DNA of 64,000 nt from Candidatus Meridianibacter frigidus (GTDB taxonomy: Bacteria; Vulcanimicrobiota; Vulcanimicrobiia; Vulcanimicrobiales; Vulcanimicrobiaceae). A program made the translations under genes and the position numbers. Location: positions 1-64,000 of the forward strand of contig QHBJ01000038.1 in assembly GCA_003243975.1 (NCBI GenBank), written 5' to 3'. A model generated the notes under the pieces. The model was not told where the DNA came from, made no database searches, and worked only from the letters and a program-made list of their open reading frames with translations. The stretch's first letter is position 1. The number at the start of each line of letters is the position of its first letter. Below are positions 9,142-47,370 of the stretch, one piece after another.

Positions 9142-11760
9142 CTATGGGCTGGGGTAATGTGACTCGTCTCCGTAGGGCACGAACAGTGTGTGCTCTTTGA
9201 GGAAACGCAAACGGACCGTTCCGATTGGCCCGTTGCGCTGTTTGGCGATGTTGAACTCCGTCAGGTCGGGTTCCGGCGACTCTTTGTTATAGTAGCCGTC
9301 GCGGTACAAGAACGCCACCACATCGGCTTCCTGCTCGATCGCGCCGCTGTTGTGCGTCAGGATATCATCAACGCAAAAATTATGAAGCTCACCAACGGTA
9401 AGATCATACACCGGCTCTAGACCCAGCGGCTCGATCGTACTGATCGTGTCCCATAAGACATCCGACTCGGACAATGAAGCCAGCTCCGGATCTTCAAGGC
9501 GCCTCGCCACGGCGGCACAAGTAGCCCTTGACATCGCCTTCCCTTGGTCGCGCCAGCCAAGCGCAGCATGAGATAAAGCGCGCGTGGAAAGCAAAGAGCC
9601 CACGCGTTCATTAACTGCGAGCGGAATGCGATCGAACTTTCCAGCATCATTGCACTTTTGGCGGATCAATTTCGAGAGCCCGGCTTCGTGCTTGGACCCC
9701 AGGAACCCGATCGAATCAATAAATGAGGAAACGACAGCCCGGTCACCGAGCCAAAGTGTCCAGAGGCACGTAGTCTTGGTGCGAAAGCCTCCGATACGCC
9801 TTGTTTCCGCCTTAAGGAAAGCGTTAATGCCAAAGCGCAGCAACAAGTGCTGAACGCCACGCGCAAGTTCTTCGCTAATTGTACTTAGGCGTACAGTGGC
9901 GCGCGTGCTTGCATGGTGGCGCGATATGCTGCCGTCTGCATGGAAGAGTCCTCTGAGGAACGCCGCAACGACGGTATCGGGTTGCGAGTATATCGCGGTC
10001 GGAACGCATTTTATCGCGCGCCAAATGCCCAATTCTCGCAGCCAGAGGGTCAACGGATTCTTGCCTGCGCCGCATGGCCTGCCCGTGGTGAGAACAACCC
10101 GGAGCGCCGTCGTGCCCGCGCGCTCCGGCTTTATTATGGGGTCTAATCCAAACTCCGAGCGAGCCAACTCCGCCGCAAATCGCGCCTCTTCCAGTGTCGC
10201 AACCGTGAGTGCGGCGGTTCCACCGAGATATCCGTCACCGACAAGCCATCCCAGCAGCGTCGCTTGGCCGGTCGTCATTTCTGAAGATTGCCAGACAGGC
10301 TGATTGCTGCGGCGAGGTACAGCGATTTCCGCGCCGGCTTCGAGGTCACGCAGTTGGCTCCAACCCGACGCCGTTAAGAACCGGTGCCCCCCCGTACAGC
10401 GCACCGAGCGTCCGGTCTTCGTGGTGACGCGAAACACCGGTTTTGGGCCAACGGACCACGCGTCGACGATGGGGTGCTTGCTTAGTCTTAGTCGATCGTC
10501 GACAGCCCAGACGTTGAATCGCAAGTGCTGCTCAACGACATCCGCGATTCGAACGCGCTGGCCGGTGTCAGCATTGGCAACAAGCGCATCGCCAGCCAGG
10601 CAGTCGCGTAGGTCTGAGAGCATCGGCCGCTTGTCGGTGCGGGATTCGACGCCGCGGTTTAGCTGCGCGAGCGCAATGACCGGAACTTGCAGATCCTTGG
10701 CGGTCGCCTTGAGGAGGCGGCAAATTTCCGAAAGCTCTTCGTTGCGATTCGAATTCCTGGCTGAGATTGCAGGGCGGACCAACTGGAGGTAATCGATAAA
10801 GACCGCACCCAAACCGTGCGCCGATTTCAAACGCCGGCAGCGGCTGCGGATCTCCGAAACCGTGAGGGTTCCCTGGTCGTCCAAGAAAAGCGGCAACTCG
10901 TTCAGCACACCTATGGCGCGCGCGATCTCTTCCCACTGGGGAAGCTTGATGTTGCCCTTGCGAAGGTCGAGCGAGTTCAATCGCGCCTCCGAGCAAATCA
11001 AGCGCTGCACCAGTTGGTCGTTGGTCATTTCAAGCGAGAACACGGCTACGGGCTGATTCTCGGTCGCGGCTGCCGCGGCGGCCATGTTGAGCGCGAGCGA
11101 CGTTTTTCCCATTCCGGGGCGCGCTGCGATGATGATCATCTCCCCGGGCTGCAAACCGGTGGTCATTTCGTCAATTTCACGGAACCCGGTCGTGAAACCG
11201 GTGCGGTCGCCCCGACTATGAAAGAGTCTATCGATCTGCTCGAAGGCCGGCTTGAGCAAACGGTTGACCTGCACGAACTCGCCACTCAGTTGATGGCTGC
11301 CGACTTCGTACACGAGCTGCTCGCACTTATCGAGGGCACCATCGACGTCTTCTTCGCTGTCGAAGCCGATCTGCGAAATCACCGTACCGGCATGGATGAG
11401 CCCGCGCAACGTCGCTTTTTCACGGACGATTTTAGCGTAGTACGTCGCTGATGCGGCGGTTTGCACGGTATTCATGAGCGACGAAAGATACGAAAGGCCG
11501 CCGACCTTCTCTAAGATGCCACGGCGGTTGAGTTCTTCGCCCACCGTGATCTTGTCACAGGGCTCGCCGCGGTCGTAGAGTTGCGCAATCGCCTGGAAAA
11601 TCGACTCGTGCACGTGCGCATAAAAATCTTGGGCCCGCACGATTTCGCTCACCGCCGGCATGATCTCGCGGTCGACCAGAATCGACCCGAGCAGCGCCAT
11701 CTCGGCTTCGAGATTCTGCGGCGGAATACGGTCGATCAAGGGAGCGTTGGCGACGGTCAT
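9142..11760 (-). CDS. dnaB: replicative DNA helicase DnaB with intein
   Basis: An 872-residue precursor: N-extein 1-386, intein 387-804, C-extein 805-872. The spliced helicase would be 454 residues, normal for DnaB. It shows the N-terminal DnaB domain (PPQNLEAEMALLGSIL), Walker A ARPGMGKTS near 215, Walker B VFIDYLQLV, and the SDLRD/SGAIEQEAD motif split by the intein. DnaB unwinds DNA at the replication fork as a hexamer. It is the last gene of the rpsF-ssb-rpsR-rplI-lonB-dnaB operon, and its ATG overlaps the lonB stop by 4 bases. Confidence 0.97.
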   Translation of the reverse strand: MTVANAPLIDRIPPQNLEAEMALLGSILVDREIMPAVSEIVRAQDFYAHVHESIFQAIAQLYDRGEPCDKITVGEELNRRGILEKVGGLSYLSSLMNTVQTAASATYYAKIVREKATLRGLIHAGTVISQIGFDSEEDVDGALDKCEQLVYEVGSHQLSGEFVQVNRLLKPAFEQIDRLFHSRGDRTGFTTGFREIDEMTTGLQPGEMIIIAARPGMGKTSLALNMAAAAAATENQPVAVFSLEMTNDQLVQRLICSEARLNSLDLRKGNIKLPQWEEIARAIGVLNELPLFLDDQGTLTVSEIRSRCRRLKSAHGLGAVFIDYLQLVRPAISARNSNRNEELSEICRLLKATAKDLQVPVIALAQLNRGVESRTDKRPMLSDLRDCLAGDALVANADTGQRVRIADVVEQHLRFNVWAVDDRLRLSKHPIVDAWSVGPKPVFRVTTKTGRSVRCTGGHRFLTASGWSQLRDLEAGAEIAVPRRSNQPVWQSSEMTTGQATLLGWLVGDGYLGGTAALTVATLEEARFAAELARSEFGLDPIIKPERAGTTALRVVLTTGRPCGAGKNPLTLWLRELGIWRAIKCVPTAIYSQPDTVVAAFLRGLFHADGSISRHHASTRATVRLSTISEELARGVQHLLLRFGINAFLKAETRRIGGFRTKTTCLWTLWLGDRAVVSSFIDSIGFLGSKHEAGLSKLIRQKCNDAGKFDRIPLAVNERVGSLLSTRALSHAALGWRDQGKAMSRATCAAVARRLEDPELASLSESDVLWDTISTIEPLGLEPVYDLTVGELHNFCVDDILTHNSGAIEQEADVVAFLYRDGYYNKESPEPDLTEFNIAKQRNGPIGTVRLRFLKEHTLFVPYGDESHYPSP
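9349..10602 (-). mobile_element. LAGLIDADG intein inside dnaB
   Basis: A 418-residue in-frame insertion that begins with Cys (CLAGDALVANADTGQRVRI, the intein N-terminal block) and ends VYDLTVGELHNFCVDDI...THN before Ser, the C-extein +1 residue. All splicing residues (Cys1, penultimate His, terminal Asn, Ser+1) are present. Two LAGLIDADG-type motifs (LLGWLVGDGYLGG and FLRGLFHADGSIS) indicate a homing endonuclease domain with both acidic residues kept. The insertion site is the conserved SDLRxSGxIEQ segment of DnaB, a known intein hot spot. Self-splicing is predicted, not shown. Confidence 0.95.
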
Positions 11761-37583: not shown

Positions 37584-39077
37584 TCAGCCATGCTGGCGCT
37601 GTAACGGAAAGAGCAGCACGTCGCGGATCGAGGATGTGTTGGCGAGCAGCATAATCAACCGGTCCACGCCGATACCGATCCCTGCGGTGGGCGGCATGCC
37701 GTATTCAAGCGCGCGAACGAAATCCCAATCCGGCTCGGGAATCTCCTCGTCGCCGCGCGCTCGTTCGCCCATCTGCGCTTCAAACCGCCGCTGCTGATCA
37801 TCGGGATCGTTCAGTTCGGTAAACGCGTTCGAAATCTCCATGTGATTGATGAAGAGTTCGTAGCGGTCCACCAAATCCGCATCGCTCTCGCGCCGTTTGG
37901 CAAGCGGCGAGATCAAAAGCGGTTGATCCGTCACGAAGGTGGGCTGGATAAGGTGCGGCTCGACGACGGCCTCGAAGATCTTATCGAGCGCGTGCCCGTG
38001 AGTGGGCGATTCCGGCAGCTTGAGCCGGCGCAGTATCGCAGCCGCGCCCTTTGGGTCGAGAAGGTCATCGCGATCGACCTCTCCGTAGCGCTTCATCCCT
38101 TCCAGATATGGCAATCGCGCGAACGGCGGTTTGAAAGAGATTTCGACATCACCCGCCTTCAAGGTCTGCGCGTCTCCCAAAGCAATCGTCGCCAGATGGG
38201 AGATCAGCGCTTCGTTAAACTCCAACATCTCGCTGACCGACCAGTATGCGCAGTAGAGTTCCAGCATGGTGAACTCGGGATTATGTGTCGTGTCAATGCC
38301 TTCATTGCGAAAAATGCGTCCGATTTCGTAGACGCGCTCCATGCCACCGACGATTAGACGTTTGAGGTTGAGTTCGGTAGCGATGCGCAGCTGCATCACC
38401 TGATCCAGCGCATGGCAGTGCGTTGCAAATGGGCGCGCCGCCGCACCGCCCGCTACGTGCAGAAGCGTCGGCGTTTCGACTTCGTAGAACCCGCGCGCGT
38501 CGATGAAGCGCCGCATCTCGGCAATCAGCCGGCTGCGCAGCAAGAAAACGTCGCGCACCTCCGGATTGACGATCAGATCGACGTAGCGCTGTCGGTACCG
38601 CTTCTCGACGTCGGTAAGGCCATGCCACTTATCGGGCAGCGGGGCGAGGGCCTTGCTCAGCACCGCGAATGTTTTGACCCGCAACGTTAACTCGCCCATC
38701 TTCGAACGGAAAACCGGTCCGCTCACGCCGACGATGTCGCCTCGGTCGACGTCTTCCCAGTCGGCGAAACCGTCGTCGCCGATTTCATCTTTGCGAACGT
38801 ACAGTTGCATCCGTCCGCTGCGATCCTGCAGGTCGACGAAGAGCGTCTTACCCGTGCCGCGCTTGGCCATCACGCGGCCGGCTAAACCGTGCTCGGTATC
38901 GGAAGACACTTCCGGGGAAAGCGACGCGTAATGCTCGAGAAGTTCCGATGCATGTGCGTTCGCATCGAAACGCGTCTGGGCGAATGGATCGCGCCCCCGC
39001 GAACGCAAAGCGGCCAGATTGTCGCGTCTGGCCGCTATTAACGCTTGCTCGCTCTTGCGCAATGTGGGCTCGCTCAT
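37584..39077 (-). CDS. lysS: lysyl-tRNA synthetase (class II)
   Basis: 497 residues. The N-terminal OB anticodon-binding domain (LAGRVMAKRGTGKTLFVDLQ) precedes the class II core: motif 1 region RYRQRYVDLIVNPEV, motif 2 (VYEIGRIFRNEGIDTTHNPE), motif 3 (GMPPTAGIGIGVDRLIMLLA). It charges tRNA-Lys. It starts 9 bases after greA, the common greA-lysS pair. Confidence 0.97.
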   Translation of the reverse strand: MSEPTLRKSEQALIAARRDNLAALRSRGRDPFAQTRFDANAHASELLEHYASLSPEVSSDTEHGLAGRVMAKRGTGKTLFVDLQDRSGRMQLYVRKDEIGDDGFADWEDVDRGDIVGVSGPVFRSKMGELTLRVKTFAVLSKALAPLPDKWHGLTDVEKRYRQRYVDLIVNPEVRDVFLLRSRLIAEMRRFIDARGFYEVETPTLLHVAGGAAARPFATHCHALDQVMQLRIATELNLKRLIVGGMERVYEIGRIFRNEGIDTTHNPEFTMLELYCAYWSVSEMLEFNEALISHLATIALGDAQTLKAGDVEISFKPPFARLPYLEGMKRYGEVDRDDLLDPKGAAAILRRLKLPESPTHGHALDKIFEAVVEPHLIQPTFVTDQPLLISPLAKRRESDADLVDRYELFINHMEISNAFTELNDPDDQQRRFEAQMGERARGDEEIPEPDWDFVRALEYGMPPTAGIGIGVDRLIMLLANTSSIRDVLLFPLQRQHG

Positions 39078-39086
39078 GTGGAGCCG

Positions 39087-39596
39087 CTAGGAGGCTTTCT
39101 TCGCAGCTTTCTTGTTGGGGCCGCTCTTAATGGCTTCGATCTTATACTTCGTCATGCCGCGGGGGGTGGTAACGTCAACGGTGTCGCCCTTCTTGCGGCC
39201 CAGGAGTGCCCGTCCCAGCGGCGATTCGTTCGAGAGACGCTTGTTGGGCGGGTCGGATTCCGCCGAACCGACGATCGTGAACTCGTGCGGGTCGCCATTG
39301 GCGACGTCTTTGAGTTTCACGGTTGACCCTAGATGGACTTCGCCCTCGGCGTACTCGCCTTCGTCAATGAGCACCGCGTTGCGAATCATCTGTTCCAGAC
39401 GCATGATGCGGCCTTCGACGAACGCCTGTTCTTGCTTGGCATCCTCGTATTCGGCGTTTTCGCTGATATCGCCAAACTCTTTGGCTTGACGGATGCGGTC
39501 GTTCACCTCGCGCCGATGGACGGCTTTCAGGTCGTCGAGCTCGTGCTCGAGCTTAACCAGTCCCTCGCGAGTCAGGACGATCTCTTTGTCGTTCAA
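39087..39596 (-). CDS. greA: transcription elongation factor GreA
   Basis: 169 residues: an N-terminal coiled coil (LTREGLVKLEHELDDLKAVH) with the acidic tip GDISENAEYEDAKQ, then the C-terminal FKBP-like domain (ESPLGRALLGRKKGDTVDVT). It rescues backtracked RNA polymerase. It is the first gene after the terminator at 39616-39640, so it starts a new unit with lysS. Confidence 0.97.
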   Translation of the reverse strand: MNDKEIVLTREGLVKLEHELDDLKAVHRREVNDRIRQAKEFGDISENAEYEDAKQEQAFVEGRIMRLEQMIRNAVLIDEGEYAEGEVHLGSTVKLKDVANGDPHEFTIVGSAESDPPNKRLSNESPLGRALLGRKKGDTVDVTTPRGMTKYKIEAIKSGPNKKAAKKAS

Positions 39597-39615
39597 CTGG
39601 GCCCCTCGTAGATTC

Positions 39616-39640
39616 GAAGAAAGACGCTCGCGGGAGCGTC
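39616..39640 (-). terminator. terminator ending the dus-to-permease operon
   Basis: GACGCTC (39623-39629) pairs with GAGCGTC (39634-39640), and on the minus strand TTTCTTC follows. The stem overlaps the permease stop codon. It gives a clear 3' end to the operon at 39639-45909. Confidence 0.75.
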
Positions 39641-41030
39641 AAGGCCCGTTGGTTAGCGATGCCCCACGAAGGCGCCTGCCCGAAGCGCGGCGGCCGAAAA
39701 TCCGTACCGCGAGCACGAAGAGCAACCCCGCGAGCAGGCCGCTAAGAGCGGCCGCGCGTGAGGCGGCCGGTTCGCGGTAAATAGCACCGGCAACTACCGT
39801 CACCAGTGCGAGTGCTCCCAGCAGCGGCAAGAGCACGCCCCCGACGCGTTCCTGCGGATCTTTCCAGAAAAAGCGAACGCTGGCTGCCGCCGCGCCGACG
39901 AACTGCACACCCAAAAAGACCGACGTCGCCGAGAGCACCAACTGCAGTGCGTCGTTGGCCGAAGGCGACCACGCCGTCAGCAATTGAGCCACCGTCGCAA
40001 CCGCACCGATGCTTAACAGCGCCCACACCGGCTCGTTCCGATGATCCAGCGTTCCAAAAACGCGCGGTAGAACGCCGTTCCTACCCATCGCATAAACACC
40101 CCGCGACAAATACAAGAACGACGTCCATAAACTCGCGCCGGTCGAGATTAGAACGGCGGTGGAAATCAATTTCTGCCAAATGCCGCCACCCAAGAGGACG
40201 CCGACGTAGTTCAGTGCCTCGTCGGCATGATCTTTGAATCCCGCGACCGATCCAAGGTGCAGGTAGGCCGCCATGCAGAGCAGCAGCACGGCGCTGGTAA
40301 CCAGCAACCCAGTCACGCCCCCGCGGCCGGCGGTCGTGCTCGCGCCCACGTTCTCTTCCGAGGTAGAGGCGGAGACTTCCCAGCCGTCCGTCATCCAAAT
40401 GCTCAGTGCCATCGCGTTCATGAATCCAAAGAAGCTCAAGCCCAGCGCCGTGGTGGCCCCCTTGGTTGCCTGGGACGCTGCTATATGAACGGGTGCGTGA
40501 AAAGCGGCCGCCACCGCACTGGCTGCCAGCACGAGCAATTCGAACAGCAACGCTGCCGCGGTAACGAATGCTGTTGGGCGCATGCCCGCATAGAGCAAGC
40601 CCGCGCCACACAGCGTCCAAACAGCTCCCACGACTGCCACCAAAAGCGGTTGCTGCGCGTGCGCGGGAGCCAATAGTTCCAGGGTGTAAATTCCCGCGGG
40701 CACCGCGGTCGCCAGGATTGCAAAGAATGTGGAGATGATCGCCAACCACGCGCCGTACGCGCCAACGTCGGGACCGAATGCCATCTCCATCCACGCGTAC
40801 GACGAGCCGGCATTCGGGTAACGCGCCGACATCCGCGCGAAAGCAACGGCCAGGAAGGTCATTACAACCGAGAGCGCCACGAGCGCGAAGAGCGATGCGT
40901 CTCCTGCGGCCGCGATCATGCCGCCCATGGTCGCCGCCAAGCTATAGGCGGGCGCCATTGAGGCGGAGGAGATTACCGAAAAATCCAGCCAACGCAGGAC
41001 GCGCGGAAGCCGTCGTTGCGCCGCCGCCAT
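39639..41030 (-). CDS. APC-family amino acid permease
   Basis: 463 residues, about 12 membrane helices. It starts LRWLDFSVISSASMAPAYSL with the helix-1 break typical of APC transporters, then helix 2-3 (VALSVVMTFLAVAFARMSAR, YPNAGSSYAWMEMAFGPDVG) and helix 6 (GFMNAMALSIWMTDGWE). It probably imports or exports an amino acid or amine. Its ATG directly follows the stop of the upstream gene (0-base gap), so it is tied to the acyl-reductase operon. Confidence 0.9.
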   Translation of the reverse strand: MAAAQRRLPRVLRWLDFSVISSASMAPAYSLAATMGGMIAAAGDASLFALVALSVVMTFLAVAFARMSARYPNAGSSYAWMEMAFGPDVGAYGAWLAIISTFFAILATAVPAGIYTLELLAPAHAQQPLLVAVVGAVWTLCGAGLLYAGMRPTAFVTAAALLFELLVLAASAVAAAFHAPVHIAASQATKGATTALGLSFFGFMNAMALSIWMTDGWEVSASTSEENVGASTTAGRGGVTGLLVTSAVLLLCMAAYLHLGSVAGFKDHADEALNYVGVLLGGGIWQKLISTAVLISTGASLWTSFLYLSRGVYAMGRNGVLPRVFGTLDHRNEPVWALLSIGAVATVAQLLTAWSPSANDALQLVLSATSVFLGVQFVGAAAASVRFFWKDPQERVGGVLLPLLGALALVTVVAGAIYREPAASRAAALSGLLAGLLFVLAVRIFGRRASGRRLRGASLTNGP

Positions 41031-41939
41031 TTACGTCGTGAGTTCTACGACTCGCGGATGCAGATGAAGCTCGTGCAGAAGCCGGTCGTAGTCCTGTGCG
41101 GTCACATCTGCCCACTTCTTCCCGAGCAGCGCCAGCAACGCAGCTTCGATGACATTCGTACCGAACGATCGTCCGGCAAAATCCGGCGTTGTCGTAATAA
41201 GCGTGCGCACACCTCGTTCGCGCAACTCTTCGATGTCCTTGGGCGTCACCGTGTTCGTCAGCACGAGTTTTCCATCCAGACGGTCGGGCATGAACTGGCG
41301 CATGAAGTGGAAATCACCCGCGATAATTTCGGCTTCCTCATAGTACTGCGGGTACTTGGGCTGCGGCGGACGGTCTTGCTTCGCGCCCGTCGGGTAGAAG
41401 AATTGAAACGGCAGTTTACATGCATCCGGCAGATATTTTTCGGCCAGTTTTTCGAATTCGCGCAAGCCGCGTACCGGCTTGTCCAAATCCAGCGCGAAGA
41501 TGAAGTCGCCGAAGAGCACGTCGGCCCCGGCATCCACCAGCGCTTGCGCCATTCCGAAGCGATCCAATGCGCTCACCATGAGCACTTGCTTTCCGCGAAG
41601 TGGTACGCCGAGCTCTTCTTGCAAAAACCGAACCGCTTCGCGCTCCAGGGTATTCTTGAGCCCGCTGCCGTCTACGACCGGCGTAACTTTCACCGCATTG
41701 AGCAGCCGCAGGCCATCGCGCAAAGCGTAACGCTTGGTTCCCGCGTAGAGATACACATCGATTCCGCCTAAACCAATGGCGTCAACCTCGCCATCAAGTT
41801 CGCGCAGTTTTTCCATGGCAACTTCGATCTTGCCGTCGGTCCCGACGCGCGAAATATCAAAATCCTCGCCCAACAGGTTCACCTGCGCCCGATGATCCCG
41901 GGAAGAAGAGCCAAGCGAAACGGATACGATCCTTTTCAT
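41031..41939 (-). CDS. 'quinate/shikimate dehydrogenase'-like protein
   Basis: 302 residues of a family usually annotated quinate 5-dehydrogenase (KRIVSVSLGSSSRDHRAQVN, DAIGLGGIDVYLYAGTKRYA, TPVVDGSGLKNTLEREAVRF, VSALDRFGMAQALVDAGADV). A Rossmann part is plausible around 115-150, but I see no proof of quinate as substrate. Neither aro nor qui genes are near. The ATG overlaps the stop of the 50-residue ORF by 4 bases. Role inferred only from the operon: it probably acts with the acyl-reductase-like protein. Confidence 0.7.
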   Translation of the reverse strand: MKRIVSVSLGSSSRDHRAQVNLLGEDFDISRVGTDGKIEVAMEKLRELDGEVDAIGLGGIDVYLYAGTKRYALRDGLRLLNAVKVTPVVDGSGLKNTLEREAVRFLQEELGVPLRGKQVLMVSALDRFGMAQALVDAGADVLFGDFIFALDLDKPVRGLREFEKLAEKYLPDACKLPFQFFYPTGAKQDRPPQPKYPQYYEEAEIIAGDFHFMRQFMPDRLDGKLVLTNTVTPKDIEELRERGVRTLITTTPDFAGRSFGTNVIEAALLALLGKKWADVTAQDYDRLLHELHLHPRVVELTT

Positions 41940-42088
41940 GGTGCAATCGCACGGAGCTTCTGGGGCATATGAGCTTGGATCGAAGCCATGGACGGCGAGA
42001 GCGACAAGTCATTGAGTAGCGTTTTCGCACGACGCGAAAACGCGGGCGTCACAAGAAATGCCACGGTCACTGGCGTCAGGCACGTCAT
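41936..42088 (-). CDS. 50-residue coupled small ORF
   Basis: A short frame (MTCLTPVTVAFLVTPAFSRR...) whose ATG overlaps the upstream stop (ATGA at 42085-42088) and whose own stop overlaps the downstream start (ATGA at 41936-41939). Its first 18 residues are hydrophobic, perhaps a membrane anchor. Perfect coupling on both sides in a compact operon argues that it is translated. No family recognised. Confidence 0.5.
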   Translation of the reverse strand: MTCLTPVTVAFLVTPAFSRRAKTLLNDLSLSPSMASIQAHMPQKLRAIAP

Positions 42089-43203
42089 GCTATCGCTTTC
42101 CTCCGTTCGTCGGCGGCTGCGCGAGTGGCGGCGATCATCTCGGGGGTAATGGCGACGTCGAACGCGCGCATGTCGGCCAAGCTGAAGCCACACCGCGTCG
42201 CCATCCGGTCGATCTCGATTACCTTCGAGAGATCGATGCCTCGACCGAGCGTGTAAGGTTCGCAGCGGTTCTCCAGCGCAAGCACCATTGTTTCGGACAT
42301 ACACGCAAGCGCGGTGCGCGGCGGCAATCCCAAATCGAACTCCTGACCGGGCTCGCGCACGCGTTCGAATCGCGGATTCCCGGGCACGAGCATGTTGCCG
42401 CCTTCAGTTACGAGCACGTCGGGGCGTTCGCTCGCCACCCGGCGGCTGACGTCATGCGGCAGCGAAAGTTCGCATACGACCGCGCCCGTTTGCAGATCTT
42501 CGGGCTCGATGATATCTTGCGTCGAGGAGGTTGCGGTCAGGACGAGTTGCGCGCGACGTACGGAGGAAGAGATGTCGGTTGTGTAGTCGGACGTGCAAGC
42601 CAGCTCTGGTCCCACGCTTTCGTGAAACTTGCGCAACCGCGTTTCGTTGCGAGCGACTAGAATCAAGCGTTTCACGCGCGGCGCAATAAGGCGCGCGCAT
42701 GCCGATCCGATGGAACCCGTCGCGCCCAGCACCACCGCCGTCGAGTGCGCAGGGTCTATTCCCATCTCGTGCGCGCCCCGAAAGAAGCTCTGAATTCCGG
42801 AGGCGATGGTTAGTGAGTTGCCCGTCGTCACCGGAATGGGTGAGCGCTCATTGACCGTTATTCCGCCGTCGCCAACGACGCCGGTGAAAGCACCGAGGCC
42901 CGCAACCTGCGCACCCATATCCGCGCCAATCTCAATGGCACGCAGAATTTTGTCGTAAACTTTCTCGCGCGGGAACTCGATCATTTGGTCGGGCATCAGC
43001 GTGGCCGCTACGAACCAGCCCTCCGTCTCACGCCCATCGGGCGTACGCACGCCGGTAACGTGAACGGCGGCATAGGCCGGCATCCAATCCAGGATTTTGC
43101 GAATGATGGGCTCGCCCTTGCCTTTAGCGCCCGGCTCGTAGCGCGTGACGTCTTCCAGCGAAACCGGATGGATCACGAAACAGAACTTGCTGGTCTGCGT
43201 CAC
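42085..43203 (-). CDS. long-chain acyl-ACP reductase (AAR)-like protein
   Basis: 372 residues. The N-terminal domain (FCFVIHPVSLEDVTRYEPGA) is followed by GLGAFTGVVGDGGITVNERS, PVTTGNSLTIASG and a Rossmann nucleotide site STAVVLGATGSIGSACARLI, then LACMSETMVLALENRCEPYT with a conserved Cys. This layout matches the cyanobacterial acyl-ACP reductase that makes fatty aldehydes, though sequence identity looks low. Database tools may call it shikimate dehydrogenase. Overlaps of 4 bases on each side tie it to SRPBCC and the 50-residue ORF. The acyl substrate is unproven. Confidence 0.7.
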   Translation of the reverse strand: MTQTSKFCFVIHPVSLEDVTRYEPGAKGKGEPIIRKILDWMPAYAAVHVTGVRTPDGRETEGWFVAATLMPDQMIEFPREKVYDKILRAIEIGADMGAQVAGLGAFTGVVGDGGITVNERSPIPVTTGNSLTIASGIQSFFRGAHEMGIDPAHSTAVVLGATGSIGSACARLIAPRVKRLILVARNETRLRKFHESVGPELACTSDYTTDISSSVRRAQLVLTATSSTQDIIEPEDLQTGAVVCELSLPHDVSRRVASERPDVLVTEGGNMLVPGNPRFERVREPGQEFDLGLPPRTALACMSETMVLALENRCEPYTLGRGIDLSKVIEIDRMATRCGFSLADMRAFDVAITPEMIAATRAAADERRKAIA

Positions 43204-43634
43204 TTTTCGGCCTCGGCTTTGAGCGCCGCCAGCATCATCTCGCTGTTTTCTTCGACTTTGCGCTGCAAGGTTGGGCCAATTAATTCGGCGAGCGTCGGTA
43301 CGCCGAAGTCATAGTCGACGCTGAGCACGACCGTCGTCACACCGTCGCGCTCGTCGAACGTCCACGCACCTTCGAACTTGTCAAGGTCGCCTTCGATCAG
43401 CTTGTAGTCGATGCGCGCATCGGTATCGTTGAAGCGGTCTTCTTCGGTCCACTCGATGGGCGCCTCTTCCACCAGCGTCTTCCACTTGGTTACGATGTAC
43501 CCCGCGTGCCGCTCCAGAATGCTCACGGATTCCACGTCCGGCATGAACTGCGGAAAGCGCTCCTGCTGTTTGGCGAGTTCGTAGACTCTGCGCGCCGGAG
43601 CACGGATTTCGATGCGTGTTTCAACATAGGGCAT
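43200..43634 (-). CDS. SRPBCC (START-like) ligand-binding protein
   Basis: 144 residues starting YVETRIEIRAPARRVYELAK with QEEFPQ-type QERFPQFMPDVESV, the polyketide-cyclase/COQ10-like SRPBCC fold, ending in a helix (LQRKVEENSEMMLAALKAEA). Members bind lipids or other hydrophobic ligands. Between an aminotransferase and an acyl-reductase-like gene, it may hand over a hydrophobic intermediate (inference). Confidence 0.88.
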   Translation of the reverse strand: MPYVETRIEIRAPARRVYELAKQQERFPQFMPDVESVSILERHAGYIVTKWKTLVEEAPIEWTEEDRFNDTDARIDYKLIEGDLDKFEGAWTFDERDGVTTVVLSVDYDFGVPTLAELIGPTLQRKVEENSEMMLAALKAEAEK

Positions 43635-43645
43635 TTACATTTTCA

Positions 43646-44905
43646 CTACAGCTGGCCCAGCTTCTCGTAGGCGGTTGCCACTCCTACTCGCAGCGCGTTC
43701 AGCGCGCGCTCAACTTCTTGCGCCGTAACGATAAGCGGCGGTTCCAAGCGAATGACGCGCTGCATATTGAGCGTCCAGGCCGCCGTCACGCCCATTTTAA
43801 GCATCTCCGGAATGATCGTTCCACCATAGCCTTCGCTGGTCAGTTCGACGCCCACCAGCAGCCCCAAACCACGCACTTCGCTGATGACCTGCGGATAGGA
43901 GTGCGCAATCGCACGCGCACCGCCCAGCAACTCTTTGCCGCGCTCGCGCGCATTTTCAACGAGGCCGTCTTCAGTCAGCACGTCGATCGCTGCTAACGCG
44001 GCCGCGCAGGCAACCTCGTTGCCGCCGAATGTAGACGTATGCATGAGCGGCGCTTTGGCGTACGCCGCGTTCCAGACCGGCAACCGCGCGATATAGGCGC
44101 CGACCGGAACAATTCCGCCGGAGAGACCCTTTGCGAGCGCCATGATGTCGGGCACCACGCCGTCGCGATTGCATCCAAAGAGCAAGCCACAGCGTCCCAG
44201 GCCGGTCTGTACTTCATCCGCGATCAGCAGAGCGCCCGACGCGTCGCAGATTTCGCGAACGGCGCGCAGGTAGCCAGCCGGCGGAACGATGACGCCGCCC
44301 TCGCCTTGCACGGGCTCAACGATAAACGCCGCCGCGTCCGTCAGCGCGCCTGCCAGCCCGTCGGTGGTTCCGTACGGCACATGCTCGACATTGGGCAATA
44401 GCGGCTCGTACTCGCGGCGAAAATACTCGCGTCCGCTCACGGTCAGCGCCCCCAAAGTTTTTCCATGAAAGGCATTGTGGGTCGCGACGATCTTGTGCCG
44501 ATTGGTCGCGGCCTTCGCCAGCTTGATTGCGCCTTCGACCGCCTCCGCGCCGCTATTGCAAAAGAAAGAAATCTGCAGATCGCCCGGCGCCAGTTCTGCG
44601 AGCCGTTTCGACGCGCGCCCGAGCATGATGTTGAACATGGTCTTGCCCGAAAGCGACATGCGCTCCATCTGATCTTGGACCGCGGCGATAACTTTTGGGT
44701 GGCTGTGCCCTAAAGTGAAAACGCCGTACCCGCCGGCGAAATCCAGATACTCCTTGCCGGCATGATCGACGATCGTGCAGCCGCGCGCGCACACTTCGAC
44801 CGGGCTTCCCGAAACCTTCATGACCCGCGCCAGCGGGGGATTCACATACTCTTTGTAATTTTCGTAAACTTCTTCGTAGATTTCTTTGGCGGAGGCGAGT
44901 GTCAT
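43646..44905 (-). CDS. class III PLP-dependent aminotransferase
   Basis: 419 residues of the ornithine/putrescine/acetylornithine aminotransferase family: DFAGGYGVFTLGHSHPKVIA, FFCNSGAEAVEGAIKLAKAA, AFHGKTLGALTVSGRE, LLIADEVQTGLGRCGLLFGC and the PLP Lys in MALAKGLSGG near 258. It transfers amino groups to or from an omega-amino compound or aldehyde. In this operon an aldehyde from the acyl-reductase-like protein is a possible partner (inference). Its start overlaps the dus stop by 4 bases. Confidence 0.9.
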   Translation of the reverse strand: MTLASAKEIYEEVYENYKEYVNPPLARVMKVSGSPVEVCARGCTIVDHAGKEYLDFAGGYGVFTLGHSHPKVIAAVQDQMERMSLSGKTMFNIMLGRASKRLAELAPGDLQISFFCNSGAEAVEGAIKLAKAATNRHKIVATHNAFHGKTLGALTVSGREYFRREYEPLLPNVEHVPYGTTDGLAGALTDAAAFIVEPVQGEGGVIVPPAGYLRAVREICDASGALLIADEVQTGLGRCGLLFGCNRDGVVPDIMALAKGLSGGIVPVGAYIARLPVWNAAYAKAPLMHTSTFGGNEVACAAALAAIDVLTEDGLVENARERGKELLGGARAIAHSYPQVISEVRGLGLLVGVELTSEGYGGTIIPEMLKMGVTAAWTLNMQRVIRLEPPLIVTAQEVERALNALRVGVATAYEKLGQL

Positions 44906-45909
44906 GCGGCCTCCGCGCAGCGTTCCAGCGATTCGATCGTCTCTTCGACCACGGCAATCGCACCTTCCCCATCGTCAATGTGCATGATGCGCTCGCGCAA
45001 CGTGGCTGCCCCGGGAATGCCTTTGAGGTAAAGTGCCACGTGTTTGCGCATTTGGGGAACCGCACGGGATTCGCCCAGTTCCTGAACCATGGTGCGGTAG
45101 TGTACGATGGCGAAACGCAAGCGATCCGCCGGTGCGGGTGGCTGACGCGCAGGCCGCCCCTCCATTAAGTCGGCGATCTGCGAGATGAGCCACGGGTTGC
45201 CCAGCGTCGCACGCCCGAGCATGATGGCGTCCACGCCCGAGCGCTCCATGCGATCCATCGCTTGCGTTGCGTCGTCAATATCGCCGTTGCCGATCACCGG
45301 AATGCCAACGGCAGCTTTGAGCCGGGCAATGTGGTCCCAATCGCTATTTCCTTTGTAAAATTGGCGCGCGGTGCGGCCATGCAACGTCACCGCCGCGACG
45401 CCCGCCCTTTGCGCACGCTTCGCGACCTCGATATAAACTAGTTGCTCCTCGTTCCACCCCAAGCGCATCTTCATCGTAACGGGGCAGTCGACGGCACAAA
45501 CGACGGCCCGCATGATGGCCTCGCAGCGCTCGACGTCTTTGAGGCACGCGCTGCCGCCCCGCGTTTTCACGACCTTCGGCGCCGGGCACCCGAAGTTGAT
45601 GTCGACGATATCCGCGCCGCATTCGCGCACAACCCGCGCCGCACGAGCCATCACCGCTGGATCGTCGCCCCAAAGCTGGGTGGAAACGGGTTTCTCCAAG
45701 CCGTGCTGATCGATCATCTCCATCGTTCGCTTGTTGCCGTGTTGCAGGGCGTTGGAAGAAACGAACTCGGTGACGGTCAGGCCCAGGCCGAATGGCTTGT
45801 AGAGGGCGCGCATGGTGCGGTTGGTGACCCCCGACATCGGGGCGAGAATCAGCGGCGGCCAAATCCGGTGAGGCCCGATCTGGAGCGGCGGAACCGTGCG
45901 CGCAGACAT
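44902..45909 (-). CDS. dus: tRNA-dihydrouridine synthase
   Basis: 335 residues with the Dus barrel: PPLILAPMSGVTNRTMRALY, the catalytic Cys in DINFGCPAPKVVKTRGGSAC near 107, TLHGRTARQFYKGNSDW and VIGNGDIDD. It reduces uridines in the tRNA D-loop with FMN. It is the first gene of the operon ending at 39639, probably a housekeeping lead gene. Confidence 0.95.
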   Translation of the reverse strand: MSARTVPPLQIGPHRIWPPLILAPMSGVTNRTMRALYKPFGLGLTVTEFVSSNALQHGNKRTMEMIDQHGLEKPVSTQLWGDDPAVMARAARVVRECGADIVDINFGCPAPKVVKTRGGSACLKDVERCEAIMRAVVCAVDCPVTMKMRLGWNEEQLVYIEVAKRAQRAGVAAVTLHGRTARQFYKGNSDWDHIARLKAAVGIPVIGNGDIDDATQAMDRMERSGVDAIMLGRATLGNPWLISQIADLMEGRPARQPPAPADRLRFAIVHYRTMVQELGESRAVPQMRKHVALYLKGIPGAATLRERIMHIDDGEGAIAVVEETIESLERCAEAA

Positions 45910-45950
45910 ACCCGGCTATTCTATCACGGGGCAGAATTCGCTCGCCCGCA

Positions 45951-45976
45951 GCAGAGACACAGGGATGTGTCTCTGC
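45951..45976. promoter_or_regulatory. perfect 11-bp inverted repeat before an HTH gene
   Basis: GCAGAGACACA and TGTGTCTCTGC are perfect complements around GGGA. A second weaker symmetry (ACAC, six A, GTGT) follows at 45981-45994. This suits an operator for the adjacent ArsR-like regulator or a hairpin in its leader. It also lies in the promoter region of the divergent dus operon. Confidence 0.6.
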
Positions 45977-45997
45977 ATACACAAAAAAGTGTCTATC

Positions 45998-46321
45998 GTG
46001 GTACTTACGCTTTTTGGTTCGCCCCTCCGCACACGGATTCTGGTATTTCTGGCTTCTTCGGCGCCAAGCTATCCGGCGGAACTCGCCCGCATTTTCCGGG
46101 TTCGTCCGACCGAAGTATACCGGGCGCTCAGCGCACTTGAGGACGTCGGTGTTGTAGCGACCCGCCGCATCGGATCGACGCGGCTGGTCGAGCTTGAATC
46201 GCGGTTTTTCGCTTTCGAGGAACTAAACGCGCTCCTATTGCGCCTAAGTTTATTGCCAGAATTTCGGGGTGTACCATGGCCGCGCCGACGCCCGCGCGCC
46301 ATCGGCAAGCGCACCGCTTGA
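45998..46321 (+). CDS. ArsR-like winged-helix regulator
   Basis: About 107 residues from GTG 45998 (an in-frame ATG at 45965 lies inside the inverted repeat). The winged-helix core is LFGSPLRTRILVFLASSAPS, YPAELARIFRVRPTEVYRAL and SALEDVGVVATRRIGSTRLV, followed by a Pro/Arg-rich tail. No metal-binding Cys pair is visible. It probably binds the inverted repeat just upstream and may control itself or the divergent dus operon (inference). Confidence 0.75.
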   Translation: MVLTLFGSPLRTRILVFLASSAPSYPAELARIFRVRPTEVYRALSALEDVGVVATRRIGSTRLVELESRFFAFEELNALLLRLSLLPEFRGVPWPRRRPRAIGKRTA

Positions 46322-46372
46322 ACGAAACCGAACTCGCGTGCATAGCCGCTCGGGTAACTCGGCAATTTCGAA

Positions 46373-46615
46373 GTGAAGGCATTCACGTTAGTCGCCAACC
46401 GCTTATCGCAATACGTCCATTGGAACGAACGGCAATCTCTCGCCGTGATCCTCGAAGCAATCGCGCAAGGTCGGCAAAAAGTTGATCTACGGAGATTGGC
46501 CGCGGCGATTGAAGCATTCGACGCGCCCGATAAGATTACGAGAGATAGAATCGCTATCGCTCGCTCCGAAATCGAAGGGTGCTCAGGAACGAAATTGCAC
46601 TTGCCTCAGGCCTGA
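46373..46615 (+). CDS. small hypothetical protein after the HTH gene
   Basis: 80 residues from GTG (VKAFTLVANRLSQYVHWNER). The segment QSLAVILEAIAQGRQKVDLR and RLAAAIEAFDAPDKITRDRI looks like a genuine helical protein, but no family is recognised. It lies 51 bases after the regulator on the same strand and converges on coaX, overlapping its end by 10 bases. Confidence 0.5.
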   Translation: MKAFTLVANRLSQYVHWNERQSLAVILEAIAQGRQKVDLRRLAAAIEAFDAPDKITRDRIAIARSEIEGCSGTKLHLPQA

Positions 46616-47370
46616 TGCTTGGAGAAGAGCTTTAGGCCGCGTAGACTCAAGTCCGTATCGACCGTATCGATCACGGGCGTGTGCTTGGCAACCACCGCTG
46701 CGAGTCCGCCCGTCGCAATTACTCGCGCGCCGCCCCCCAGCTCAGAGCGAAAGCGCGCGACCAGGCCTTCGGTTTGCCCCACGAAACCATACACGATGCC
46801 GGACTGCAACGATGCAATGGTTTCCCGGCCAATCGCTTGCCCAGGTGCTTCGAGCGCAATCTGCGGCAGCTTGGCGGCCCGCCCCACCAGAGCATCGACC
46901 GAGATTGAAATCCCCGGCGCAATTGCCGTGCCGACAAACTCGCCCGCATCCGAAATTGCCACAAACGCGGTGGCCGTGCCGTAACTGATCACGATTAGCG
47001 GTGCGCCATACGAAGCGCGCGCGCCGATTGCCGCGGCCACCAAGTCAGCACCGACTTCGGAGGGACGGTCCGTGCGCACCGGTATTATCCGCTGACGGTG
47101 CGGCTTCAGAAACGCCGGCGCGCGATCGAAGAAGCGTTCGCATGCCTCGTGGAGCACCTGATCGAGTTTCGGCACTACGCTTGCTACGGCCACCCCATCG
47201 ATCGCACTTGTGTTGACGCCGCTCGTTGCAAGAAGCTGGCGCAGAAAGACGCCGTACTCGTCGCCGGTTCGGCGCGAATCGGTGGTTACGCGCCAGCGGT
47301 GCAGCAGTTCATCGCCATCGAAAATGCCAAGCTTGGTTTCGGTGTTCCCGATGTCAATTGCCAGTAGCAC
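46606..47370 (-). CDS. coaX: type III pantothenate kinase
   Basis: 254 residues of the CoaX ASKHA fold: [20 protein letters not shown] (phosphate-1 motif), VRTDRPSEVGADLVAAAIGA with the catalytic Asp, TAIAPGISISVDALVGRAAK and ARVIATGGLAAVVAKHT. The usual D-x-GTATT segment reads SYGTATAF. It phosphorylates pantothenate, the first step of CoA synthesis. It overlaps coaBC by 17 bases. Confidence 0.95.
   Translation of the reverse strand: MLLAIDIGNTETKLGIFDGDELLHRWRVTTDSRRTGDEYGVFLRQLLATSGVNTSAIDGVAVASVVPKLDQVLHEACERFFDRAPAFLKPHRQRIIPVRTDRPSEVGADLVAAAIGARASYGAPLIVISYGTATAFVAISDAGEFVGTAIAPGISISVDALVGRAAKLPQIALEAPGQAIGRETIASLQSGIVYGFVGQTEGLVARFRSELGGGARVIATGGLAAVVAKHTPVIDTVDTDLSLRGLKLFSKHQA

Follow-up and report, generated by a model that had tools for sequence, protein, structure and literature searches.

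Enzymes that pair a thioester reductase with a class III aminotransferase to make fatty amines appear, in the literature we found, in only a few antibiotic or pigment clusters. PigE turns a thioester into an aldehyde by reduction and then transaminates that aldehyde (PMC8341465), TamH of the tambjamine pathway converts C12-acyl carrier protein (C12-ACP) to a C12 amine with NADH by means of a reductase whose cysteine is equivalent to C294 of SeAAR (PMC9594044), and the same conversion is predicted for the koreenceine enzyme KecF (PMC6498172). Fusions of transaminase and acyl-ACP reductase (AAR) domains from the thermophiles Thermaerobacter and Thermincola have transaminase activity with aliphatic aldehydes and amines (PMC10829540). 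A parallel to this chemistry (PMC8341465) is offered by glutamyl-tRNA reductase (GluTR) and glutamate-1-semialdehyde aminomutase, in which a cysteine thioester reductase passes an aldehyde to a class III pyridoxal phosphate (PLP) enzyme, although with another substrate and from other protein families. Here we analysed a window of 64,000 nucleotides from Candidatus Meridianibacter frigidus (contig QHBJ01000038.1), of the phylum Eremiobacterota, in which an AAR-like protein (AAR) and a class III aminotransferase (AT3) are encoded together with a small SRPBCC protein and a protein of a family without a name, here QDH. We consider it probable that these four genes, AT3-SRPBCC-AAR-QDH, form an ancient, mostly vertically inherited module that converts an acyl thioester, likeliest acyl-ACP, into a primary amine.

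What PigE and TamH combine in one chain is split here between AAR and AT3, which lie on separate polypeptides in the window and are joined only in some relatives. PigE, the prodigiosin MAP aminotransferase (4ppm; NF053554), likewise combines an AAR-type reductase carrying an active-site cysteine with a class III aminotransferase, but does so on one chain within the prodigiosin cluster, whereas the window's pair stands in a housekeeping setting next to SRPBCC and QDH. TamH, KecF and the Thermaerobacter and Thermincola fusions share the two activities proposed here, and have the same domain order as the AT3–AAR fusions found beside QDH in three loci described below. TamH and KecF are, however, fused and belong to secondary-metabolite clusters, whereas the window's genes are unfused and part of the core genome of the phylum. 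The module does not stand in a secondary-metabolite cluster with ACP and tailoring genes, its neighbours being dusB, greA, lysS, truA, coaX, coaBC and panC. Cyanobacterial AAR (6jzu/6jzy; TIGR04058) resembles the window's protein in fold and cysteine mechanism, but ADO, the alkane-forming partner of the cyanobacterial enzyme, is absent from the window's genome. The putrescine aminotransferase PatA is the closest curated relative of AT3, which nevertheless falls below the cut-off of that family and is tied to a reductase. Searches of the open-access literature for the gene set, for COG5322 and for the name quinate 5-dehydrogenase led only to the papers on PigE, TamH, KecF and the fusions.

AAR fits the N-terminal half of PigE better than it fits cyanobacterial AAR (192.8 bits to NF053554 versus 77.7 bits to the AcACP_reductase model TIGR04058), with neither cut-off reached (850 and 449.7, respectively), and its PDB matches are PigE (4ppm) and AAR (6jzq/6jzu). 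The nucleotide motif GATGSIG is present, as is LACMSET, which aligns with CMAET of PigE and CFAEA of SeAAR; its cysteine is retained in 73 of the 76 AAR rows, from several phyla, the remaining three being two decayed copies and one cut-off sequence. The predicted model (predicted local distance difference test score, pLDDT, 90.0) has the AAR fold, with template modelling (TM) scores of 0.75/0.81 to the acyl-ACP reductase 6jzy and of 0.46 or less to shikimate/quinate dehydrogenases of the AroE/YdiB fold. By predicted structure, the protein is an acyl-ACP reductase and not a shikimate dehydrogenase; the shikimate/quinate dehydrogenase candidate is ruled out by fold and active site. A match to PF01488 (33 bits) covers the Rossmann stretch only, and that to the GluTR model is weak (31.9 bits). 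In the AAR tree, the Eremiobacterota sequences, among them one record (L140) that groups with the window, form a single clade (support 96/99), as expected under vertical descent, and the point at which PigE and cyanobacterial AAR join, on long branches, is not resolved.

AT3 matches Pfam Aminotran_3 (PF00202) at 338 bits, the NCBIfam PatA model (NF008570) at 437.6 bits and the C-terminal half of PigE (NF053554) at 421.4 bits, the last two short of their cut-offs of 612 and 850; PatA comes first among its PDB matches and PigE after it. K259 is invariant across 11 members from the phylum. SRPBCC adjoins AT3 within the phylum and also in five outside genomes, and no extra partner recurred around AT3 outside the phylum, where the recurrent families seen were AT3, SRPBCC and antisense frames of AT3. 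A search of plasmids for AAR relatives returned 15 records, and in each of the 13 annotated ones a class III aminotransferase lies at the site of the match.

QDH of the window has no match in Pfam, PF01488 included, or in NCBIfam, and NCBIfam, with its aroE models, matched none of three members of the family. Its predicted model (pLDDT 91.7) has no close PDB match; the best fold matches by TM, which include AAR and carmabin TAD, are weak (0.45–0.49), and no shikimate/quinate dehydrogenase is among the fold matches listed. The label of 'quinate dehydrogenase' that this protein had been given thus finds no backing in family or fold, and we rejected that assignment, for which no test was supportive. 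A sequence relationship to AAR was rejected as well, the profile comparison giving no alignment and the fold TM being 0.49 at most. Read by eye, QDH lacks the classical GxGxxG motif and keeps an Asp-Arg-x-Gly motif, perhaps in the place of a glycine-rich nucleotide loop. Identity between the window and distant families of the phylum is 58–64% for QDH, against 46–51% for the adjacent lysS. No QDH was found in plasmids. One genome (G329, locus L088) carries two tandem QDH genes ahead of AAR, the second of which departs from several motifs (SGSGLKDILE for DGSGLKxTLE); a heteromer is possible.

An earlier note on this DNA had described seven coupled open reading frames (ORFs), dusB to an APC permease, as one operon around an acyl-ACP-reductase-like enzyme, and had suggested a pathway not described for its lineage. 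All seven were confirmed on the minus strand at 45909–39639 (Table 1), with junctions that agree with its description (overlaps of 4 bases at four of them, no spacing at one and an 11-base gap at the sixth), but gene order in relatives does not keep the seven as a whole. Neither the permease nor dus is a constant partner, the 50-amino-acid ORF is a repeat, and the unit that is kept is the four genes AT3-SRPBCC-AAR-QDH. AAR occurs in 58 of 60 relatives, including 45 of the 45 well-assembled ones, and QDH in 135 of 149 genomes of the phylum (81 of 85 when well assembled). The two are adjacent on the same strand in all 20 phylum loci, preceded by SRPBCC in 19 and by AT3 in 17; of the three that lack AT3, two are cut short by a contig edge. 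In some loci, L034, L036 and L037 among them, other genes stand between members of the module. Nor is the module confined to the lineage, as it is also found in Bacillota, Armatimonadota and other phyla.

Outside the phylum, QDH is present in 21 of 239 sampled bacterial genomes. AAR (E<1e-20) accompanies it in 21 of 21, compared with 8 of the 218 genomes without QDH (Fisher p 6e-24), and SRPBCC (E<1e-13) in 14 of 21 compared with 1 of 218 (p 1e-16). AT3 at 440 bits or more occurs in 17 of 21 and in none of 87 control genomes, whose best score is 373 bits (p 2e-16). Since the thresholds were picked after the scores had been seen and the genomes are related, these figures are descriptive. The best 80 of 555 QDH loci include Bacillota (Thermoanaerobacter, Heliobacterium, Caloramator and others), Armatimonadota, Caldisericota and more. 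The common gene order there is dusB, a helix-turn-helix (HTH) protein, QDH, AAR, greA and lysS, and the neighbourhood itself is therefore shared with Eremiobacterota. AT3 at 440 bits or more is carried by 11 of 15 named genomes, in fused form in L104 and L148. An AT3–AAR fusion directly follows QDH in L104, L148 and L163 and lies apart from QDH in L180, and QDH and AAR form a single open frame in L177, L178 and L179. The fusions beside QDH and those of QDH itself thus argue that AT3, AAR and QDH work together and, with the adjacency of AT3 and SRPBCC in five outside genomes, that all four genes are tied to one process. In Thermaerobacter, no AAR was detected within the 20-kb QDH locus (L167), so the published fusion cannot be linked to QDH by position; the genome does hold AT3.

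The best explanation of these data is an ancient housekeeping pathway to a primary amine, probably a lipid, with QDH as a partner of AAR. By relatedness to known enzymes, the four-gene set should take a carrier-bound fatty acid through an aldehyde to an amine. We think it quite probable, judging from sequence, that the module carries out reduction and transamination, as the earlier note had suggested for the reductase and the aminotransferase, an idea that gains from the matches to both halves of PigE, the AAR fold of the model and a co-occurrence beyond chance in other genomes; neither of the two outcomes that the note had named as refuting it, genes that do not co-occur and a true shikimate dehydrogenase model, was seen. 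An amine as the product stays an inference, and a lipid amine in particular is put forward tentatively. From computed homology, active-site residues, fold, gene order, co-occurrence and fusions, we infer a substrate, a direction, a product and roles for SRPBCC and QDH as follows. An acyl group from ACP (or CoA) would be moved onto Cys301 of AAR and reduced there with NAD(P)H to the aldehyde. SRPBCC may bind the hydrophobic aldehyde or amine or deliver it onward, hand-over of the aldehyde to AT3 would run via SRPBCC and/or QDH, and AT3 would transaminate it to the primary amine, which may be an alkyl amine, long-chain or branched, destined for a lipid of the membrane or envelope. QDH is a putative physical partner of AAR that might serve in carrier docking, in gating or in an additional step: in the genomes sampled outside the phylum it was never found without AAR, to which it is sometimes fused. 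The fatty acids of Vulcanimicrobium alpinum, the first cultured species of Eremiobacterota, include iso-C14:0 and 3-OH acids, and its polar lipids are all unidentified (PMC9758169); an amino-lipid could therefore have gone unrecognised.

Several points weigh against this explanation, of which the role of QDH is the weakest link. Reductase activity for the clade of AAR is predicted from sequence, and AT3 has a putrescine aminotransferase as its best curated match, which makes short diamines possible products. The co-occurrence counts take related genomes as independent. Tepidanaerobacter and Caldicoprobacter (L124, L143) have QDH but no AT3 reaching 440 bits, and in a few lineages the AAR next to QDH is decayed or gone; QDH may thus have another role. 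In some Clostridia, proteins of about 245–330 amino acids that resemble decayed AARs and lack the cysteine motif take the place of AAR, and the three that were scanned (L112, L143 and L174) have no convincing Pfam match.

The same enzymes could also run in reverse, AT3 converting an imported amine into an aldehyde that AAR would oxidize to an acyl thioester for catabolism. AT3 is indeed closest to the catabolic putrescine aminotransferase, and in the window's family the APC permease bears a weak likeness to amine and amino-acid carriers, but this permease is absent in other classes and phyla, the studied AAR-type domains in the literature we found act as reductases and AT3–AAR-type fusions are found in amine-making clusters (PMC8341465, PMC9594044, PMC6498172), which makes catabolism unlikely in our judgement. 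We are similarly doubtful that the aldehydes from AAR serve non-amines, such as alcohols, ether lipids or hydrocarbons, with AT3 a separate enzyme that is merely nearby. In some genomes AT3 does lie away from the QDH–AAR pair, and in others QDH is present but no AT3 reaches 440 bits; against this stand the association of AT3 with QDH (17/21 versus 0/87) and its fusion to AAR beside QDH in some Bacillota. ADO (PF11266), the only alkane-forming partner tested, occurs in 1 of 148 genomes of the phylum and not in the window's own, and an alkane pathway was rejected on that ground; the sole ADO-like match scores 64.8 bits.

That the QDH–AAR pair serves mainly in sensing or regulation rather than in biosynthesis would accommodate the HTH protein ahead of QDH in many Bacillota, the decayed AAR-like proteins after QDH in some Clostridia and the absence of a classical GxGxxG motif from QDH. 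It leaves no place, however, for the link with AT3 and SRPBCC and sits badly with the retention of the active-site cysteine across AAR rows, and we judge it very unlikely. A seven-gene pathway that includes dus, the 50-amino-acid ORF and the permease draws on the tight junctions of this one genome, is contradicted by the gene order of relatives and by the nature and inconstancy of the added members, and seems to us scarcely credible.

Table 1. Positions of the module, its surroundings and related features; positions without a locus or genome label are those of the window.
Feature	Position	Strand	Remarks
dusB, tRNA dihydrouridine synthase	44902..45909	-	TIGR00737, 355 bits, above cut-off
AT3, class III PLP aminotransferase, 419 aa	43646..44905	-	Pfam Aminotran_3; PLP lysine K259 in LAKGLSGG
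SRPBCC/START-like small protein, 144 aa	43200..43634	-	Polyketide_cyc, 74 bits; putative hydrophobic-ligand carrier
AAR-like thioester reductase, 372 aa	42085..43203	-	GTG start; Rossmann GATGSIG; active-site Cys301 in LACMSET
50-aa ORF	41936-42088	-	mostly dispersed repeat; not a gene
QDH, 302 aa	41031..41939	-	family without a name
APC-type permease	39639..41030	-	Pfam AA_permease_2
greA	39087..39596	-	module neighbour in several phyla
lysS	37584-39077		next to greA; module neighbour in several phyla
ArsR-like HTH protein	45965-46318	+	divergent from dusB
DnaB helicase with intein	9145-11760	-	intein bears LAGLIDADG domain
Tandem QDH genes	L088:10001-11795		ahead of AAR
Decayed AAR-like proteins	L112:10940-11854; L113:10958-11743; L114:1700-2599; L143:10903-11895; L174:5457-6251		
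HTH protein between dusB and QDH	L135:9466-9984; L110:9447-9998		also in other loci
ADO-like match	G028:C230:30633-31253		sole match in the phylum

dusB, greA and lysS are old housekeeping-type neighbours with no part in the pathway: dusB lies upstream of the module in most loci of the window's family and in many Bacillota, and QDH/AAR are followed by greA-lysS in the phylum, in Bacillota and in other loci. The APC permease is a family-level neighbour outside the core, standing between QDH and greA solely in loci of the window's own family and missing from that position in L035, L038 and outside the family. Past it lie greA, lysS and truA, and upstream, on the side of dusB, coaX, coaBC and panC. 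The earlier note had placed a terminator at the end of the operon; a hairpin, GACGCTC-ccgc-GAGCGTC, with TTTCTTCG, is indeed present at 39640–39623, but terminator-like sites in the region show no excess over chance (6 observed versus 9.0 expected). A scan of 39000–47000 with Rfam gave no match.

The 50-amino-acid ORF is ruled out as a gene because its bulk (bases 42050–41963, minus strand) belongs to a dispersed repeat, about 88 bases long, that landed in the AAR–QDH junction, and because the stop of AAR and the start of QDH overlap directly by 4 bases, with no ORF between them, in 11 of 20 relatives. Copies of the repeat, 72–89% identical, lie at 10, 10 and 8 places in three related genomes (G032, G034 and G105, respectively). 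It carries an internal hairpin, GCGTTTTCGC...GCGAAAACGC, one copy was found in the window's genome, and it sits inside a 4-base operon junction with the surrounding reading frames intact. Two candidate regulators stand near the module: in the window, an ArsR-like HTH protein just upstream of the operon and, in many Bacillota, the conserved HTH protein of about 175 amino acids between dusB and QDH, whose C-terminal part has no good family match and which is possibly a regulator of the module. Elsewhere in the window, a DnaB helicase contains an intein.

What is new here is that a reductase–transaminase pair belongs to the core genome of a whole phylum, and also occurs in several others, with a conserved partner that lies outside the family libraries searched. 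More speculatively, QDH may represent a new family of obligate partners for AAR-type reductases; with AAR, AT3 and SRPBCC it would then make, in Eremiobacterota, many Bacillota and Armatimonadota, a core alkyl amine or amino-lipid not described before, and the antibiotic enzymes PigE and TamH may derive from such a housekeeping pathway. Hosts of the module are in culture (Vulcanimicrobium, Thermoanaerobacter and Heliobacterium), which makes direct testing feasible. If a lipid amine is the product, a basic component of the membrane or envelope of these bacteria would have been overlooked.

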